The position numbers were made by a program, and so were the translations under genes. From contig DAIDGU010000005.1 in the NCBI GenBank assembly GCA_027459785.1, positions 1-64,000 on the forward strand: 64,000 nucleotides of DNA, written 5' to 3'. Of the stretch, positions 200-46,889 are shown one piece after another; positions within the stretch are counted from its first letter, which is position 1; every line of letters starts with the position of its first letter. The notes under the pieces are model-generated. The model searched no databases. It was not told the origin of the DNA and saw only the letters and a list, made by a program, of their open reading frames with translations. This stretch comes from Ktedonobacteria bacterium (GTDB lineage Bacteria > Chloroflexota > Ktedonobacteria > Ktedonobacterales > JACDGC01).

Positions 200-2029
200 G
201 TGGCAGGATTGGCACAAGCGAATGATCCGCTCTATGCGTATGTCGGCGCGTTTGTGGATGAACTGTGGCGCGCGAGGGTGCAGCATATCGTGATCTGCCC
301 CGGCTCGCGCTCCACGCCGCTCGCGCTCTCGTTCGCCATGCGCCAGGCAGACTTTAAACTGTGGCTGCACGTGGATGAGCGGTCGGCAGGTTTTTTTGCG
401 CTGGGCCTGGCGAAGCGCACGCGGCAGCCGGTGGTGTTGGTATGCTCTTCTGGCACGGCAGCAGCGAACTTTTTCCCCGCTGTGGTCGAAGCCAACCTGT
501 CGCATATCCCGCTGATCGTGCTGACCGCCGACCGTCCGCCGGAACTGCGCGACAACGGCGCGCCCCAGACCATCGATCAATTGCGCCTGTATGGCACGCA
601 CGCTAAGTGGTTCGCCGAGATCGCCCTGCCCGAAGGCACGCCCGCCGCGCTGCGCTACATCCGCGCGCAGGCCGCGCGCGCCGCCGCGACCGCCCGCGCC
701 GCTCCCGCCGGCCCGGTGCAGTTGAATATGCCCTTCCGTGAACCACTGGTGCCAAAGTTAGAACACGAAGGCCACGAAAACGACGCAAGCCACGAAAATA
801 GCAATGAAAGAAATACTTATCCGCAGGTCGCAGTCGCCGATGCGTTTGTCAGCCTCATCAATCCATTGGTTATCGAGCGGTTGGCAGAACAGTTGGTTGC
901 GACACGGCAGGGTGTGATCATCGTGGGACCACATCAGCATGGAGGGCTGCCGGCGGAAGTGCTGACGCTGGCCGAGTTGTTGGGCTACCCCATCCTGGCC
1001 GATCCCTTGTCGTGGCTGCGGGGGTTCGCGGATGAGCAGATCATCACGAGCTATGATGCGTTTTTGCGCGATCCCGCGTTTGTCCGTGCCGCCGCGCCGG
1101 AGATGATCGTGCGCTTCGGGGCGATGCCGACGGCCAAGCCGGTGCTGCAATATCTGCAACAATACGCGGGATGCCCGCTGATCGTCGTCGGCGACGCGAA
1201 CACGTGGGACGAGCCGACGCAATTGGCGAGCGAGATCGTGCGCGGCAGCCCGGTACAGGCGTGTGTTGCTTTGACCGCGGTGGCGCGGGCAATCATGGAA
1301 GAAGCGCCGCCGCGCCGGGAGCCGAACGCCTGGCTGGCGCGCTGGCGCGCGGCGAATCGCGCGACGATAGACGCCCTGCGCGCCGGCATCGCGGAGTTCA
1401 GCGACCCCTTCGAGGGGCGCGTTTTCACCGAACTGGCGGAAATCTTGCCGGAGCCAGCGACGCTCTTTGTAGGCAATAGCATGCCGGTGCGGGATTGCGA
1501 CACGTTCTTCTGGGGCGCGACGGGCGTGGGGATCATGGGCAATCGCGGGGCGAACGGCATAGACGGCATCATCTCGACGGCGCTGGGCGTCAGCGCGGCC
1601 CAGCCGGATCACCCCGTCGTGCTGGTCATCGGCGACCTCTCGTTCTATCATGACATGAACGGTCTGTTGGCGGCGAAGCTGCACAAGCTTAACCTGACTA
1701 TCGTGCTGGTCAACAATGACGGCGGCGGGATCTTCTCGTTCCTGCCACAAGCCGACCACCCCGATCATTTCGAGCAGCTTTTCGGCACGCCGACCGGCCT
1801 GGATTTCGCGCCAGCGGTGGCGATGTATGGCGGGCGCTTCACGCGGGCAACGGACTGGGCGCAGTTCCGCGAGGCCGTGACGCAGGGCATCACCAGGGGT
1901 GGGCTGCACGTGGTCGAGGTGCGCAGCGACCGTGTCCGCAACGTGGCCCAGCACCGCGCCCTGTGGCAGCGCGTGCATGCCGCACTGAGCGAGCGTGGCG
2001 TCATCCCGCCGGAAGGCGGCGAGGCATAA
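200..2029 (+). CDS. menD: 2-succinyl-5-enolpyruvyl-6-hydroxy-3-cyclohexene-1-carboxylate synthase
   Basis: ThDP-dependent enzyme that joins isochorismate and 2-oxoglutarate in menaquinone synthesis. About 609 aa. N-terminal CPGSRSTPLAL and DERSAGFFALG are typical MenD motifs; the C-terminal ThDP/Mg site is GDLSFYHD followed by NNDGGG. The GTG at 200 was chosen because AAAGG lies 9 nt upstream and the protein then begins just before the conserved NDPLYAYV; a TTG at 209 is the alternative, and an ATG at 137 would add an unlikely basic leader next to repeat DNA. Residues about 188-204 (LEHEGHENDASHEN...) are encoded by CACGAA-type repeat sequence and are not expected in the family. First gene of the men operon; menH follows after 1 nt. 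Confidence 0.95.
   Translation: MAGLAQANDPLYAYVGAFVDELWRARVQHIVICPGSRSTPLALSFAMRQADFKLWLHVDERSAGFFALGLAKRTRQPVVLVCSSGTAAANFFPAVVEANLSHIPLIVLTADRPPELRDNGAPQTIDQLRLYGTHAKWFAEIALPEGTPAALRYIRAQAARAAATARAAPAGPVQLNMPFREPLVPKLEHEGHENDASHENSNERNTYPQVAVADAFVSLINPLVIERLAEQLVATRQGVIIVGPHQHGGLPAEVLTLAELLGYPILADPLSWLRGFADEQIITSYDAFLRDPAFVRAAAPEMIVRFGAMPTAKPVLQYLQQYAGCPLIVVGDANTWDEPTQLASEIVRGSPVQACVALTAVARAIMEEAPPRREPNAWLARWRAANRATIDALRAGIAEFSDPFEGRVFTELAEILPEPATLFVGNSMPVRDCDTFFWGATGVGIMGNRGANGIDGIISTALGVSAAQPDHPVVLVIGDLSFYHDMNGLLAAKLHKLNLTIVLVNNDGGGIFSFLPQADHPDHFEQLFGTPTGLDFAPAVAMYGGRFTRATDWAQFREAVTQGITRGGLHVVEVRSDRVRNVAQHRALWQRVHAALSERGVIPPEGGEA
761..810. repeat. CACGAA-type repeat arm inside menD
   Basis: A 50-bp purine-rich stretch with three spaced CACGAA units (GAACACGAAG, GCCACGAAAA, GCCACGAAAA). 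It matches one arm of the inverted repeats at 3776, 5448 and 26604. It keeps the menD frame and encodes the His/Glu-rich peptide HEGHENDASHEN. No matching TTCGTG arm is seen nearby, so this is a solo arm. Confidence 0.75.
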
Positions 2030-3775: not shown

Positions 3776-3961
3776 GAGAGGGTTTCGAGCGAACACGAAA
3801 GCCACGAAAAGACCACGAAGAACACGAAAAAAAAGAAAAGTTGTTCGTAGGGAAGCTTGACAGCGATCCTGTAAAGGTGAAACCGGCTACAGGGAGGCTG
3901 CATTTCAAAAATTTTCGTGGCTTTCGTGAAACTTTTCGTGGCTTTCGTGTTCCCGTCTTTG
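3776..3961. repeat. CACGAA-type inverted-repeat element between menB and menC
   Basis: Left arm at about 3790-3838 carries CACGAAAGCCACGAAAAGAC and further CACGAA units. Right arm at about 3912-3956 carries the complement (TTTTCGTGGCTTTCGTG twice). The centre is unrelated DNA. The arms could form a long imperfect hairpin in the menBC transcript. Same family as the copies in menE and at 26604. It fills nearly the whole 209-bp menB-menC gap. Confidence 0.85.
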
Positions 3962-3978: not shown

Positions 3979-5100
3979 ATGATCATCGCCGACATCCGCG
4001 TCCATCCCTACCACATTCCGTTTCGCCAGCCCTTTGCTACGGCGCATGGCACGCTGGCGGCGCGGGAAGGGGCCATCGTGGAGTTGGTGACAGATGGCGG
4101 GATCGTCGGGCTGGGCGAGATGGCGGCGGTGACGGAGTTTGATGCGCCAGATGTGGCGACGCTGGTGGCGGCGGCACGCGAGGCGGCAGCGCAGATTCGT
4201 GGCCGCTCCTTCTTTGCGCCTGATTGGCGTGCCACCCTATCGCCCTTGCCGCCACCCCTTGACTTCGCCCTCGAACGAGCCCATTTCGATGCTTTCGTAC
4301 GTGAGGGCATCACAAACGGTCATCGACATGATGAGCGCCTCTATCCGCCTGTGCGCGTGAATGCGACCGTCAGCGCGCCGGTGGTGGAGCAGGCGGTGGC
4401 CGATGCCCGGCGTGCCGTTACCGCCGGTTTTCAATGTATCAAGCTCAAAGTCGGTATGCTCGGTGATCCTTCCCTGGAGAGCGGACGCATTTGGGCAGTG
4501 CGCGCCGCTATCGGCCCTGATAGCCAGTTGCGCCTGGACGCCAATGAAGCCTGGACGCTGGATCAAGCGGAAACCATACTGCGCCAGGTACGCGAAGTGG
4601 ATATTCAATTCGTGGAACAACCGCTCGCGCGCACGCATCTGGCAGATATGCGGACGTTACGGCAGCAGACAGGGATACCCATTGCCGTTGATGAAGCGCT
4701 CACTGATCCGGCGAGCTTGCAACGCATCTGGGATGCAGACGCCGCCGATGTGCTGGTGCTGAAGCCGCAATTGTTGGGCGGCATCAATGGAATTCATCCT
4801 GCCGTCGCCCAAGCTATGCTCCGCAAGAAAAGTATCGTTATAACCACCACCCTGGAAGCGGGAGTTGGCGTCGCCGCGACGCTGGCAATCGTGCAACATC
4901 CCATTTTTGCGTTGCCTGGCATGCGTCCCCTTGTGTTGGCCTGTGGGCTGGCAACCTTACCACTTTTGGAAGATGACCTGATCAACGAGACTTTGCCCGT
5001 TGAAAACGGCTGGATTCATGGCGCGAACACGCCCTTTCAACTGGTGACGCTGGACCGCGCCGCCCTGGATCGCTATCGGCTGGAGGTGCCGGAATGCTGA
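3979..5100 (+). CDS. menC: o-succinylbenzoate synthase
   Basis: Enolase-superfamily dehydratase turning SHCHC into o-succinylbenzoate. About 373 aa from the ATG at 3979, which has GGAGTG 5 nt upstream and gives the usual N-terminus (IADIRVHPYHIPFRQPF). Catalytic elements: KLKV (lysines), metal ligands in DANEAW, VEQPL and VDEAL, and LKPQLLGG before the C-terminal cap. The longer frame from 3841 runs through the repeat element and is rejected. Ends 7 nt inside menE. Some homologues also racemise N-acylamino acids, but the operon favours MenC. Confidence 0.93.
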   Translation: MIIADIRVHPYHIPFRQPFATAHGTLAAREGAIVELVTDGGIVGLGEMAAVTEFDAPDVATLVAAAREAAAQIRGRSFFAPDWRATLSPLPPPLDFALERAHFDAFVREGITNGHRHDERLYPPVRVNATVSAPVVEQAVADARRAVTAGFQCIKLKVGMLGDPSLESGRIWAVRAAIGPDSQLRLDANEAWTLDQAETILRQVREVDIQFVEQPLARTHLADMRTLRQQTGIPIAVDEALTDPASLQRIWDADAADVLVLKPQLLGGINGIHPAVAQAMLRKKSIVITTTLEAGVGVAATLAIVQHPIFALPGMRPLVLACGLATLPLLEDDLINETLPVENGWIHGANTPFQLVTLDRAALDRYRLEVPEC

Positions 5101-6728
5101 CGACCTTGCCGGATTGGCTGGCGCGGGCGGCGGAGAACTACCCCGCTAAGCTGGCGCTGCGCTGCGACGGAACCGATTGGAGCTTCGCCGAACTGGATCG
5201 CCAGGCGACGGAATTGGCGCACCGGCTGGCGGCGCAAGGTGTGCGGGCGGGCGACCGCGTGGCGCTGCTGGCGCAGAACGGCTTGCCCTTCGCCGCGCTG
5301 GTGCATGCGCTCACGCGCCTGGGCGCGATCCTCGTTCCCCTGAACACGCGCCTGACCCCGGCAGAGCTGGCCTGGCAACTGGCTGATGTGCGCGCCACCT
5401 GGCTGCTGGCGGATACCCACTATACTGAACTCGCTAGGGAGATCAGGACGCGACACGAAGGGCACGAAGGAACAGAAGGACACGAAAATCATGAGGGATT
5501 GAAAGGACATAAAAGATCGGCTGCACCTTATCCATTAGCTACCGATGAAATCGTTTTGGCAATGGCCTTTTCCGATCCCTTCGTGCTCTTCACATCCTTC
5601 GCGGCCTTCGTGTCGAGTCCTAACATCGAATTTGCCGCTCAGGCAGGGGCATTACGCACCGAGATCGACCTCGATGCGCCCCAGGCAATCATCTTTACCT
5701 CCGGCACGACGGGCCAGCCGAAGGGCGCGATCATCACGTATGGCATGCAGTGGTGGGGCGCGGTCGGCTCCGCGCTGAACCTGGGCCACGATCCGGCGGA
5801 TCGCTGGCTGGCCTGCATGCCGTTCTTTCACGTCAGCGGCCTGTCGATCCTGTTCCGCAGCGTGATCTACGGCATCGGTGTGGTCGTGCATCCGCGCTTC
5901 GACGCCGCCGCGATCAACCGCTCGATCCAGGAGGACGGCGTGACGATCATTTCCGTCGTCGCCGCGATGGTCGGGCGCATGCTGACCGATCTGGGGGAGG
6001 GTCGCTATCCACCGGCTTTCCGCTGCCTGCTGCTGGGCGGCGGACCCGCGCCCGTGCCGCTGCTAGAAACGTGTGCCGCGCGCGCCATCCCCGTGGTGCA
6101 GACGTATGGCATGACCGAGACGTGTGCGCAAGCCGTCACCCTCGCCCCCGCCGACGCGCTGCGCAAGATCGGTTCCGCCGGCAAGCCGCTGGCGGCAGTG
6201 CAACTGCGCATCATGGGCGATGACGGCATAGCTGGCCCGGACGAAGCCGGCGAGATCCAGCTACGCGGCCCGACGCTCACGCCCGGTTATGCCGAACGGC
6301 CCGACGCCACCGCCCGCGCCTACACGCCCGATGGCTGGTTCGCCACCGGCGACATCGGCTATCTGGATGCCGAGGGTTATCTCTATGTGCTGGATCGGCG
6401 CTCCGATCTGATCATCTCCGGCGGCGAAAACGTCTATCCGGCGGAGATCGAGGCCGCCTTGCTGGCGCACCCCGCCGTGCAGGAAGCCGGCGTCTGTGGC
6501 GCGCCGGATGCCGCGTGGGGCCAGGTGCCGGTCGCCTTCGTCGTGTTGCACGCCGGCGCGGCGGCTGCGCCCGCTGAGTTGCGCGCGTTCCTCGCGGATC
6601 GCCTGGCGCGCTACAAAGTGCCAGGCGCGATCTATCTCGTCGCCACGCTGCCGCGCAACGCCGCCGGCAAGCTGCTCCGGCGCGACCTGCCGCGCCTGCT
6701 GCCGGACAATGATCCGATGGCCCCTTGA
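5094..6728 (+). CDS. menE: o-succinylbenzoate-CoA ligase with in-frame repeat insertion
   Basis: Adenylate-forming enzyme that activates o-succinylbenzoate to its CoA thioester, feeding MenB. About 544 aa, longer than typical MenE. Motifs: phosphate loop IIFTSGTTGQPKGA, MTETCA, GWFATGDIGYLD, RRSDLIISGGENVYPAEIE and the C-terminal catalytic lysine in RNAAGKLLRRDL. Residues about 119-177 (HEGHEGTEGHENHEG... to AFVSS) come from an inserted repeat with inverted ends, still in frame. The ATG overlaps the menC stop by 7 nt. Whether the insert is tolerated cannot be told from sequence; all catalytic motifs lie downstream of it and are intact. Confidence 0.92.
   Translation: MLTTLPDWLARAAENYPAKLALRCDGTDWSFAELDRQATELAHRLAAQGVRAGDRVALLAQNGLPFAALVHALTRLGAILVPLNTRLTPAELAWQLADVRATWLLADTHYTELAREIRTRHEGHEGTEGHENHEGLKGHKRSAAPYPLATDEIVLAMAFSDPFVLFTSFAAFVSSPNIEFAAQAGALRTEIDLDAPQAIIFTSGTTGQPKGAIITYGMQWWGAVGSALNLGHDPADRWLACMPFFHVSGLSILFRSVIYGIGVVVHPRFDAAAINRSIQEDGVTIISVVAAMVGRMLTDLGEGRYPPAFRCLLLGGGPAPVPLLETCAARAIPVVQTYGMTETCAQAVTLAPADALRKIGSAGKPLAAVQLRIMGDDGIAGPDEAGEIQLRGPTLTPGYAERPDATARAYTPDGWFATGDIGYLDAEGYLYVLDRRSDLIISGGENVYPAEIEAALLAHPAVQEAGVCGAPDAAWGQVPVAFVVLHAGAAAAPAELRAFLADRLARYKVPGAIYLVATLPRNAAGKLLRRDLPRLLPDNDPMAP
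5448..5624. repeat. CACGAA-type inverted-repeat element inside menE
   Basis: Left end CGACACGAAGGGCACGAAGG and right end CCTTCGCGGCCTTCGTGTCG are near-complementary. Element length is about 177 bp, a multiple of three, and it contains no stop in the menE frame. The interior (about 5500-5580) resembles neither arms nor adenylating enzymes. MITE-like; no transposase is present. Confidence 0.85.
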
Positions 6729-6754
6729 CGCCGCCCACCTTCATGCGCTATACT
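6725..6754 (+). promoter_or_regulatory. Sigma70-type promoter of tRNA-Leu
   Basis: TTGACG (6725-6730) and TATACT (6749-6754) separated by 18 bp, placing the start point about 6760, a few bases before the tRNA. The -35 hexamer overlaps the menE stop codon. Confidence 0.7.
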
Positions 6755-6764
6755 ACCCATACCA

Positions 6765-6847
6765 GCCGATGTGGCGAAATGGCAGACGCGGAGGTCTCAA
6801 AAACCTCTATCCGAAAGGATGTGTGGGTTCGAGTCCCACCATCGGCA
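6765..6847 (+). tRNA. tRNA-Leu(CAA)
   Basis: Acceptor stem GCCGATG/CATCGGC with discriminator A. Anticodon arm GAGGT-CTCAAAA-ACCTC gives anticodon CAA (codon UUG). Long class II variable arm TATCC-GAAA-GGATG. T arm GTGGG-TTCGAGT-CCCAC. CCA is not encoded (ACCT follows). A diverged 3' piece of a tRNA-Leu lies at 8759-8814. Confidence 0.95.
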
Positions 6848-6873
6848 CCTGTGGCCCTATCTAGAGAAATGCC

Positions 6874-6915
6874 AAGCGCCCCTAGAGTATCGAAGGAAGT
6901 TCTAGGGGCGCTTTT
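6874..6915 (+). terminator. Rho-independent terminator after tRNA-Leu
   Basis: Perfect 12-bp stem AGCGCCCCTAGA / TCTAGGGGCGCT with a 14-nt loop, followed by TTTT. Confidence 0.85.
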
Positions 6916-7075
6916 GACGCCAATTGATAGCAGATGACACCCTCTCACGGCAATATGTGTATGATAGCAATACGATGGTGAGCATCATCTTGATGTAAGA
7001 TGGGTTTTGCCACACTGGAAAAAAGAGCCTTGCTGTTCACCTTCCTCAATCGCCAAGGTTGGCATGGTGAACCGT

Positions 7076-7459
7076 TCACTCAGATGGGGCCGCTTGTGAG
7101 TCATCCATCAAAGCCATCCGGTACTCCAACATCCGATGCAGTGTTCCTAGCATCTGATCATATTCATCCTTTTTCCGTTCAATCTCCCCGATCTTGTGGC
7201 GAATCCAGTCGATCACTTCGAGATTGGTCCGCGTATGAGTATCCTGGTCTTGCAAGATATCCTTCATTTCGGCAAGCGAGCATCCTATGCCCTGAAACTT
7301 CTTGATGAGTTTCAGTCGTTCAAGCGCCTCGTCGGTATACGTGCGATAGTTATTTGCCTCTCTGCGGACATGCCGACTGTCCAACAAGCCTTCCTGTTCA
7401 TAAAACCGAATGGTATAGACGGATAACCCCGTCTGTTCGGCTAACTCGTGAATCATCAT
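7076..7459 (-). CDS. MerR-family transcriptional regulator
   Basis: About 127 aa. N-terminal winged helix typical of MerR (IHELAEQTGLSVYTIRFYEQEGLL, then NYRTYTDEALERLKLIKKFQGIGCSLAEMKDIL), followed by a dimerisation helix. There is no clear cysteine-rich metal-binding C-terminus, so a metal sensor is unlikely. Divergent from the epimerase gene at 7562, with a MerR-type operator between them, so that gene is the probable target. Lies in the segment between the intact tRNA-Leu and the tRNA-Leu fragment. Confidence 0.85.
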   Translation of the reverse strand: MMIHELAEQTGLSVYTIRFYEQEGLLDSRHVRREANNYRTYTDEALERLKLIKKFQGIGCSLAEMKDILQDQDTHTRTNLEVIDWIRHKIGEIERKKDEYDQMLGTLHRMLEYRMALMDDSQAAPSE

Positions 7460-7481
7460 TTCCTGTTCTCCTCACAAGGAC

Positions 7482-7512
7482 TTGCCTTAGAGTCCACTCT
7501 ATAGTTTACGCT
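7482..7512 (+). promoter_or_regulatory. MerR-type promoter/operator
   Basis: TTGCCT (-35) and TACGCT (-10) are separated by 19 bp, and the 14-bp palindrome TAGAGTCCACTCTA (7488-7501) fills most of the spacer. Overlong spacers with a centred dyad are the hallmark of MerR-activated promoters. It reads toward the epimerase gene. Confidence 0.65.
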
Positions 7513-7561
7513 CTTATTGCGCAAGTTGCGCAACAACCCAACAGCGTAGGAGAACATCACC

Positions 7562-8401
7562 ATGCGTGTTTTCGTCACAGGAGCACCAGGCTTCATCGGG
7601 TCCGCCGTCGTCCGCGAACTCACCAATGCCGGTCATACGGTCGTCGGTCTGACCCGTTCAGACACCGGTGCCGAGATTCTGAAGAAAGCTGGGGCCGAGG
7701 TGCAACGTGGCTCTCTTGACGACCTCGACAGCCTTCACCGCGGCGCTGCGGCTGCCGACGGCGTCATTCACCTGGCGTTTAATCATGGTTTTTCGGACTT
7801 TGCCGCCGCGCTGAGCGCCGATCTGCGTGCGGTCGAGACAATGGGGGCGGCGCTGGAAAGCACCGGCAAGCCGTTCATCATCACCGCTCACTTACGCGGG
7901 GAAGTCTCGGCGAACGCAGCGCTCAGCCTGGCAGGAGTGCGATCATTAGTCGTCTCGCTCTCCCTGTCCGTGCATGGCGAGGGCGACCACCACGGCTTCG
8001 TGCCGAGACTGATCTCCATCGCCCGTGAGAAGGGAATCTCTGCCTACATCGGCGACGGGTCCAACCGCTGGACAGCGGTCCATCGCCTCGATGCGGCGCA
8101 CCTGTACCGCCTGGCGCTGGAAGCCGCCCCGGCGCGGTCGCAGCTTGATGGAGTCGGCGACGAGGGGGTGGCCTTCCGCGACATTGCCAGCGTCATTGGT
8201 CGCCATCTGAACCTGCCGGTGGTCAGCATTGCTCCTGACGAGGCAGGCACCCACTTCGGCGCTTTTCTTGGTGCCGTGGCGGCACGTGACCTTCCGAGGT
8301 CGAGCGCGCGAACCCAAGAACTTCTGGGATGGCGGCCTGTGCATCCCGGCCTGATCGCGGACATAGAACAGCACTACTTCAACAACGGAAACGAGGCTTA
8401 G
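7562..8401 (+). CDS. NAD(P)-dependent SDR epimerase/dehydratase family protein
   Basis: About 279 aa, extended/atypical SDR. The Rossmann motif GAPGFIGSAVV is at the N-terminus (variant of GxxGxxG), followed by DLDSLHRGAAAADGVIHLAF. The YxxxK active site is not recognisable, as in several atypical SDRs. AGGAG sits 9 nt before the ATG. Downstream of a MerR-type promoter, suggesting induction by a small molecule or stress; substrate unknown. Confidence 0.8.
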   Translation: MRVFVTGAPGFIGSAVVRELTNAGHTVVGLTRSDTGAEILKKAGAEVQRGSLDDLDSLHRGAAAADGVIHLAFNHGFSDFAAALSADLRAVETMGAALESTGKPFIITAHLRGEVSANAALSLAGVRSLVVSLSLSVHGEGDHHGFVPRLISIAREKGISAYIGDGSNRWTAVHRLDAAHLYRLALEAAPARSQLDGVGDEGVAFRDIASVIGRHLNLPVVSIAPDEAGTHFGAFLGAVAARDLPRSSARTQELLGWRPVHPGLIADIEQHYFNNGNEA

Positions 8402-8859
8402 GGGCACACTTCACGACAACGAGTCTTGAGGAACGGACCGGAAGACGACGCGAAACGCGTCACGATAACTTCCAGTCCGTTGCGCAAGGACTTCATGCGC
8501 TTCTTTTTACGGCGTTGGGAATTTCCCGCTGCTAGGAATCGTTGAGGCAAGGAGGAAAATCACCTCACATGCACCTCATCGGGCATCTAGATAGATACAT
8601 TCTCTTATTATATCAACCATGTGGCAATACATATTGTACTGCAATTGTACTGCAACGCGGAGCAAACTCCTGTATGTTGTGGTACAATAGTCGATGGATG
8701 AACTCGCTCTGCGCCCACCTTTCTGGCCTATGCAACGTCTAGCGAGGTAGCTGATTAAGTCTCAAAAACCTTTGCCTGAAAGGGCGTGTGGGTTCGAGTC
8801 CCACCATCGGCACCCCAATACCTGTTCATCCCTTTCTCTACAACAGAGAGGATGCCTGT
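8402..8859. other. Intergenic region around tRNA fragment
   Basis: About 460 bp without a supported protein gene. It holds the 3' tRNA-Leu fragment at 8759-8814. AT content at 8580-8700 is visibly higher than in the neighbours. Nothing else recognised. Confidence 0.6.
8759..8814 (+). pseudogene. Detached 3' part of a tRNA-Leu gene
   Basis: GTCTCAAAAACCT (anticodon loop and stem) and the last 29 nt, covering the T arm and acceptor 3' strand, are identical to the intact gene at 6765. The variable arm differs and no pairing 5' acceptor strand is present upstream. It is either the displaced half of an attachment site or a decayed tRNA copy. Confidence 0.75.
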
Positions 8860-18771: not shown

Positions 18772-18893
18772 GCGGGCGGTTGAAACCGCGCCTAGGGGCG
18801 TGCCGCCACGAAGTCCACCTACGTGGACTAGCTCCAGTCCGCGACGGCGGACTTCGTAGCCGAAGGCTCTTAGGCGCGGTTTCAACCGCCCGC
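18772..18893. repeat. Cloverleaf-like dispersed palindrome, copy 2
   Basis: Same outer arms as copy 1. The inner 48-bp core is the exact reverse complement of the core of copy 1: the AGTCCAC hairpin comes first, AGCTCC in the middle, the AGTCCGC hairpin second. Sits 25 bp upstream of the queuosine-salvage gene start. Confidence 0.88.
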
Positions 18894-26603: not shown

Positions 26604-26775
26604 GGACACGGAGGACACGAAAAGGCCACGAAATGACGCGAGGTTGTGGGGAAGGTGCGTTTGTCACCAGAACCAGCCTGCGATTGATACGTTAGCAGCG
26701 GGTGTCGTCCCGCGTGCCATTCAGCAGTATTTCGCGTGATCTCGCGGAGTATTCGTGTCATTTCGTGTTCCGTAT
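26604..26775. repeat. CACGAA-type inverted-repeat element
   Basis: Left arm GGACACGAAAAGGCCACGAA near 26613 and right arm ending ATTCGTGTCATTTCGTG near 26750-26768 are complementary. The spacer of about 110 bp is unrelated to the other copies. Fills most of the gap between the GT4 and GH57 genes. Confidence 0.75.
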
Positions 26776-33275: not shown

Positions 33276-33398
33276 GCGGGCGGTTGAAACCGCGCCTAAG
33301 GGCGTGCCGCCACGAAGTCCACCTACGTGGACTGGAGCTAGTCCGCGACGGCGGACTTCGTCGCCGCCAGGCGCTTAGGCGCGGTTTCAACCGCCCGC
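33276..33398. repeat. Cloverleaf-like dispersed palindrome, copy 3
   Basis: Outer arms as in copies 1 and 2. Core hairpins are in the order of copy 2, but the central hexamer is GGAGCT instead of AGCTCC, so only the hexamer is flipped. Lies between the proline-rich protein and the dUTPase gene. Confidence 0.88.
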
Positions 33399-46761: not shown

Positions 46762-46817
46762 CCCCGGCGGCCCCACCCCCAACCCCTCCCCATCTGCGGA
46801 TGGAGAGGGGCGATGAG

Positions 46818-46889
46818 ATCGAACACGAAAGCCACGAAAGGTTCACGAAGATTACGACAGGTTCATGAAGCTACGGAAGGCTAAGAAGA
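46818..46889. repeat. CACGAA-type solo arm
   Basis: GAACACGAAAGCCACGAAAG followed by degrading units (TCACGAAG, TTACGACAGG, TTCATGAAG). One arm only, between convergent genes. Fifth member of the family in the window. Confidence 0.65.

Follow-up and report, generated by a model that had tools for sequence, protein, structure and literature searches.

How does menE, a gene of the essential type in the vitamin K2 pathway, come to carry an inverted repeat inside its reading frame and still encode a full-length protein? The question was raised by a reading of the sequence alone (the sequence-only reading) of a window of 64,000 nucleotides, the whole stretch of Ktedonobacteria DNA analysed here. 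It described a MITE-like inverted repeat splitting the N-terminal part of MenE, and offered as explanations either selection for protein-coding frames or a splicing or processing event.

The inverted repeat within menE

The gene and the parts of the element are as follows.

5094..6728, + strand: menE, 2-succinylbenzoate--CoA ligase, 544 aa; the element keeps the frame, brings no stop and leaves the protein full length
5445..5486, + strand: left arm, CACGAAGGN units in degenerate tandem, spaced at 9 nt; encodes RTRHEGHEGTEGHE
5487..5579, no strand: loop that separates the arms; the fold prediction pairs part of it
5580..5621, - strand: right arm, an inverted copy 81% complementary to the left arm; encodes FVLFTSFAAFVSSP

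That the repeat lies in frame and leaves MenE unbroken was confirmed, as the open reading frame reads through it and the product is covered by the Pfam domains AMP-binding (4.7e-71) and AMP-binding_C (3.4e-22), its top match among solved structures (PDB) being 5buq, a 2-succinylbenzoate--CoA ligase. The element had been placed at 5448-5624; it is real, but the palindrome runs from 5445 to 5621, three bases upstream, with arms of 42 bp that stand 93 nt apart. The left arm reads CACGAAGGG CACGAAGGA ACAGAAGGA CACGAAAAT, in degenerate tandem units of nine bases. As DNA, the 193-nt menE stretch folds at -46.8 kcal/mol versus -23.0 in shuffles (z -7.1); as RNA, the element strand folds at z -7.7 versus shuffles, and none of 200 shuffles matched its fold.

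The element occupies a length-variable linker of MenE ahead of the TSGTTG motif. From PLNxRL to TSGTTG there are 120 residues here versus 81-83 in Ktedonobacterales homologues (a range that leaves out L071, a Ktedonobacterales MAG with a separate long insertion in its MenE), so that this protein is longer by a net 37-38. The earlier figure of about 59 added residues thus describes what the element encodes (59-60) but not what the protein gained, and since the net gain is smaller than the element, about 22 ordinary linker residues either gave way to it or lie between its two arms. A search of the MenE homologues for the same peptide, HEGHEGTEGHENHEG, which might have been conserved where the repeat is lacking, did not find it. 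Modelling had been suggested as a way of seeing whether the insert loops out of the adenylation fold, and the AlphaFold2 model (23-sequence alignment, mean pLDDT 80.5) has it doing so: residues 126-179 fall below a pLDDT of 50 while most of the AMP-binding fold exceeds 85, which predicts a disordered surface loop on an intact AMP-binding core. The MenE that carries the element is probably active, and its linker peptide probably made.

A dispersed family of paired arms

When the menE element was compared with the genome by BLAST, its matches elsewhere were to the arms only and never to the central loop, of which about 5509-5560 is unique in the genome; nor did the loop match anything elsewhere in the nine genomes searched. 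The closest match is an intergenic copy, G000:C57:34010-34053, with 93% identity to the left arm over 44 bp. The window itself holds further copies, on which the sequence-only reading was silent.

757..799 (about), + strand: single arm inside menD (137-2029), encoding the peptide LEHEGHENDASHEN; same family as the menE arms
3789..3953, no strand: paired copy in the intergenic stretch that separates menB from menC, with + and - arms and a loop of 81 nt
26607..26770, no strand: intergenic paired copy, more degenerate; same family as the menE arms
46817..46863, + strand: intergenic single-arm copy; same family as the menE arms

An arm profile was built and run on 2.25 Mb of the genome, taken as stretches, with the reversed sequence as control. 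At E<0.01 it called 136 arms, versus 0 in the reversed sequence, which group into 96 elements and extrapolate to about 200 elements genome-wide; the menE copy is divergent and falls under this threshold. The simpler motif CACGAAN{3,5}CACGAA has 452 matches in the 4.84-Mb genome versus 0 in the reversed control. The arm, of about 42 bp, consists of four degenerate CACGAA units (consensus approximately CGAACACGAARGCCACGAAANNNYCACGAARRMCACGAAA), and the commonest copies are hairpins about 95 bp long whose loops measure 6-22 nt, with a tail of copies in which loops reach 128 nt. Polarity is fixed, since the arms run + then - in all 44 adjacent pairs and - then + in none. A consensus arm alone folds no better than its shuffles (RNA z +0.3), while the pair does fold (z -6.6).

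Gene calls came from our own ORF scorer, by which about 84% of the sequence is coding. Against that background 75 of the 96 elements are intergenic, 16 lie at gene edges and five were called intragenic (binomial p 6e-67). The median distance from a gene 3' end to an element is 21.5 bp, and divergent promoter gaps are avoided (4 of 66, p 0.0009).

The reading that we prefer, at a probability of roughly 0.85, is that the menE element belongs to a hairpin repeat, dispersed and non-autonomous, of a Ktedonobacterales genome, and that this copy landed and persisted in a length-tolerant linker of MenE. The repeats would spread by way of an enzyme acting in trans and would usually settle in intergenic spacers, often shortly downstream of genes; one copy would have landed in the MenE surface linker, ahead of TSGTTG. 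A mobilising enzyme for the CACGAA elements was not found, and direct repeats of at least 4 bp in the flanks are within the control range (0.32 versus 0.27 in shuffled pairings), although old copies may have lost their target-site duplications; we therefore infer the mobility of these elements from their dispersal. Searches of other kinds returned little: a canonical hairpin had no match in plasmid and phage collections, where low-complexity filtering may mask one, and a literal literature search for CACGAAGG gave just primers and unrelated papers.

A classic MITE derives from an insertion sequence by deletion, keeps the terminal inverted repeats and would here have been moved by a DDE transposase as a single unit of 177 bp. 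The shortness of the inverted-repeat structure, the many copies, the preference for intergenic sites and the fixed polarity of the arms would all suit it. Such a unit should nevertheless carry its interior along, and the loops of different copies share only short, chance-level matches and differ in both sequence and length (6-128 nt). Together with flanking repeats that are no commoner than in the shuffled pairings and a search, not exhaustive, that identified no parent insertion sequence, this makes a classic MITE unlikely. What stands of the original description as MITE-like is a repeat-derived, inverted-repeat insertion.

Origin of the 93-nt loop in menE

The loop itself can be argued in two directions. 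If the arms are deleted and the loop retained, the linker length of the homologues is restored, and the loop contains PLAT at an offset identical to that in two homologues; both observations favour, from sequence comparison, the loop as native linker. However, the loop core (5514-5561) has a GC3 of 0.25 versus about 0.75 in the flanking codons and a negative coding score, and against the family profile HMM 161 of 300 shuffles of the loop peptide score equally well as the peptide itself, all of which would favour the loop as sequence of the element.

The first set of observations allows a pathway in which the arms formed in place around native menE sequence, through tandem expansion and template switching, so that the arms alone would be foreign and the 93-nt loop would be the MenE linker. 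It is also in keeping with lone arms being common, a degenerate partner being detectable for just 8 of 44. We regard this pathway as improbable, for besides the composition of the loop core and a loop peptide that scores no better than its own shuffles, it has to account for the 93% identity over 44 bp with a distant copy. Arms that are nearly identical to distant copies are more readily understood as copied from elsewhere than as locally made, as the preferred reading of a dispersed repeat has it.

Other palindromic repeats in the same linker

The CACGAA element is not the only repeat in this part of MenE. In two Viridilinea genomes, L075 and L077, the corresponding MenE segment is 106-135 residues long and includes a CCCRCGTTGYGGGAG hairpin, a sequence counted 196 times in the L075 genome, 93 times in that of L077 and 0 times in controls. 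In L071 the MenE linker contains AGTCCGC-NNN-GGCGGACTTCG, of which, at no more than one mismatch, there are 48 copies in the L071 genome and 101 in the genome of the window. Copies of this palindrome lie in the window at 39-59, 18836-18856 and 33340-33360.

The same MenE linker has thus taken up unrelated palindromic repeats in separate lineages, namely in three other Chloroflexota genomes, which is most simply read as tolerance of repeats on the part of the linker. A stronger proposition would be that the linker before TSGTTG is a recurrent acceptor across Chloroflexota beyond tolerance (for CACGAA, CCCRCGTTGYGGGAG and AGTCCGC-GGCGGACT alike), either by targeted insertion at a site in the transcript or DNA or by some benefit from an mRNA hairpin or a longer linker. 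We hold this to be quite unlikely. In either event, one protein linker with different repeat families in separate lineages offers a natural series for the origin of disordered segments from non-coding repeats.

Spread among genomes

In a phylum sample of 301 Chloroflexota, most genomes have little of the CACGAA-pair motif and a few show an expansion. The genome of the window has 452 matches and the congener G001 has 24, and a distant genus of the family f24, g49, has genomes with about 420-780. Three genomes of that genus, G071, G079 and G131, have about 750-775 matches each, the top of the 301, and G103, from another genus of f24, has 0. Beyond Chloroflexota, a Gemmatimonadetes genome has paired copies in low number.

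This patchiness among genomes, along with the extragenic placement, often beside gene 3' ends, and the inverted pairs, is what one would look for in a REP/BIME-type element mobilised by a RAYT (a Y1 tyrosine transposase), and intragenic REPs have precedent (PMC3733652). But REP units are small stem-loops, and the lone CACGAA arm, as noted above, has no stem of its own. Moreover, no Y1_Tnp match was found in G071 and G079, which have 750-770 motif matches each, and nine were found in G000. With Y1 transposases missing from two of the genomes richest in copies, the family does not need a RAYT, and as the distribution of Y1_Tnp does not track copy number, mobilisation by RAYT was rejected; the REP/BIME explanation as a whole is very unlikely. 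A family that has expanded so patchily without an evident transposase makes the mode of spread a concrete question.

In-frame copies and reading frames

Members of the family are found in frame in other genes as well. The menD arm lies where a linker joins the N-terminal TPP-enzyme domain to the middle one, and homologues are without it. In carB, an in-frame arm encodes GNTKATKSHEGHEN ahead of the conserved VVVQFGGQ. At the same site the congener G001 has GGGAGCACGGAGGACACGGAAAAGGACGGAGGACACGGACAC, with 29 of 42 bases identical in an ungapped hand count; the site was not called by the arm profile, and judging by the sequences the carB insertion is likely, though not proven, to be common to G001 by descent. 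A further arm, G000:C45:19538-19579, lies in frame in an ORF for a 533-aa membrane protein (peptide ANTLTTKIHENHEM), with a weak inverted partner near it.

The same carB ORF (5174-8707; L271, G000:C73) has, at about residue 908, a second in-frame insertion, PRGVPPQSPPAGTGM, that relatives do not have. At DNA level the insertion, AAGTCCACCTGCGGGGACT, is similar to the palindromic repeat AGTCCGC-GGCGGACT, so that carB would be host to two repeat families.

Two of the five elements called intragenic, C10:72081 and C71:117057, were set aside as artefacts of 5' ORF extension, the true starts likely lying downstream of the element. With these removed and menE added, about 4 of 97 elements (~4%) are intragenic, in menE, menD, carB and the C45 membrane-protein ORF, all of them in frame.

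Selection for protein-coding frames, proposed in the sequence-only reading, is not borne out by the family, about 96% of which lies outside genes. The lengths of the compact hairpin elements fall 11/5/12 into classes 0/1/2 mod 3, with no bias towards multiples of three. Of 6 frames, 5.28 are open in the arms and 4.02 in ordinary intergenic sequence, but dinucleotide shuffles of the arms, at 5.15, lack stops to the same degree; for whole hairpins the figures are 3.43 open frames and, in shuffles, 2.21. The repeat is therefore easily read through, and nothing shows selection for coding frames. Given lengths without a multiple-of-three bias, the in-frame copies look like survivorship: insertions that broke the frame presumably destroyed the host gene and hence were lost. 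The menE copy would have persisted because the total length change kept the frame, because the arms have few stops in any frame and because the peptide, predicted to be a disordered loop, stays clear of the catalytic fold.

Removal of the element from RNA or protein, by splicing or cutting, is hardly credible, and so is its selection as a coding domain: an essential-type gene, an in-frame element and a His/Glu-rich repeat peptide might suggest either, but no intein, intron or other RNA family matched the region (AMP-binding domains only in Pfam; tRNA-Leu only in Rfam, window 1-30000, E<=1), the family is overwhelmingly non-genic with unbiased lengths, and processing is unneeded where the predicted fold accommodates the insert.

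Comparison with known systems

The CACGAA repeats, dispersed and palindromic, are new as a family, and tolerated in-frame copies of such repeats are a known phenomenon. The best known are the Rickettsia palindromic elements (RPEs; Ogata et al. 2000, 2002). As far as they are described in PMC10969869 and PMC3733652, these dispersed palindromes measure about 100-150 bp, enter ORFs unusually often and occur in frame in conserved metabolic genes, where they add a peptide and leave the protein unbroken. The CACGAA family likewise has in-frame copies in conserved protein genes (menE, menD and carB). It differs from RPEs in that only about 4% of its copies are intragenic, in its arms of tandem CACGAA units and in belonging to another phylum, a separation that we make by description.

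REP units are self-palindromes of 20-40 bp with a GTAG or CGTC tag, the GTAG types having RAYT genes, and for intragenic REPs of both families the authors attribute the in-frame copies to flexible linkers or loops (PMC3733652). CACGAA elements resemble them in being mostly extragenic, near gene 3' ends, in forming inverted dimers and in occasionally lying in frame, but the CACGAA arm is not self-palindromic and its copy number does not follow Y1 transposases. MITEs, exemplified by QMITE1/2 of Coxiella (PMC5896051) and by the enterobacterial RU elements found intragenically (PMC2759123), are similarly short, inverted-repeat elements of tens to hundreds of copies with occasional in-frame insertions; unlike them, the CACGAA family has been found with neither a target-site duplication nor a conserved interior nor a parent insertion sequence. 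Because neither the target-site duplication and shared interior of MITEs nor the self-palindromic unit and Y1 association of REPs was found, we treat the CACGAA repeats as a separate family. With them, in-frame capture of palindromic repeats, for which Rickettsia and the REPs are the best-known cases, reaches free-living Chloroflexota, where core enzymes of one genome, MenE, MenD and CarB, are affected.
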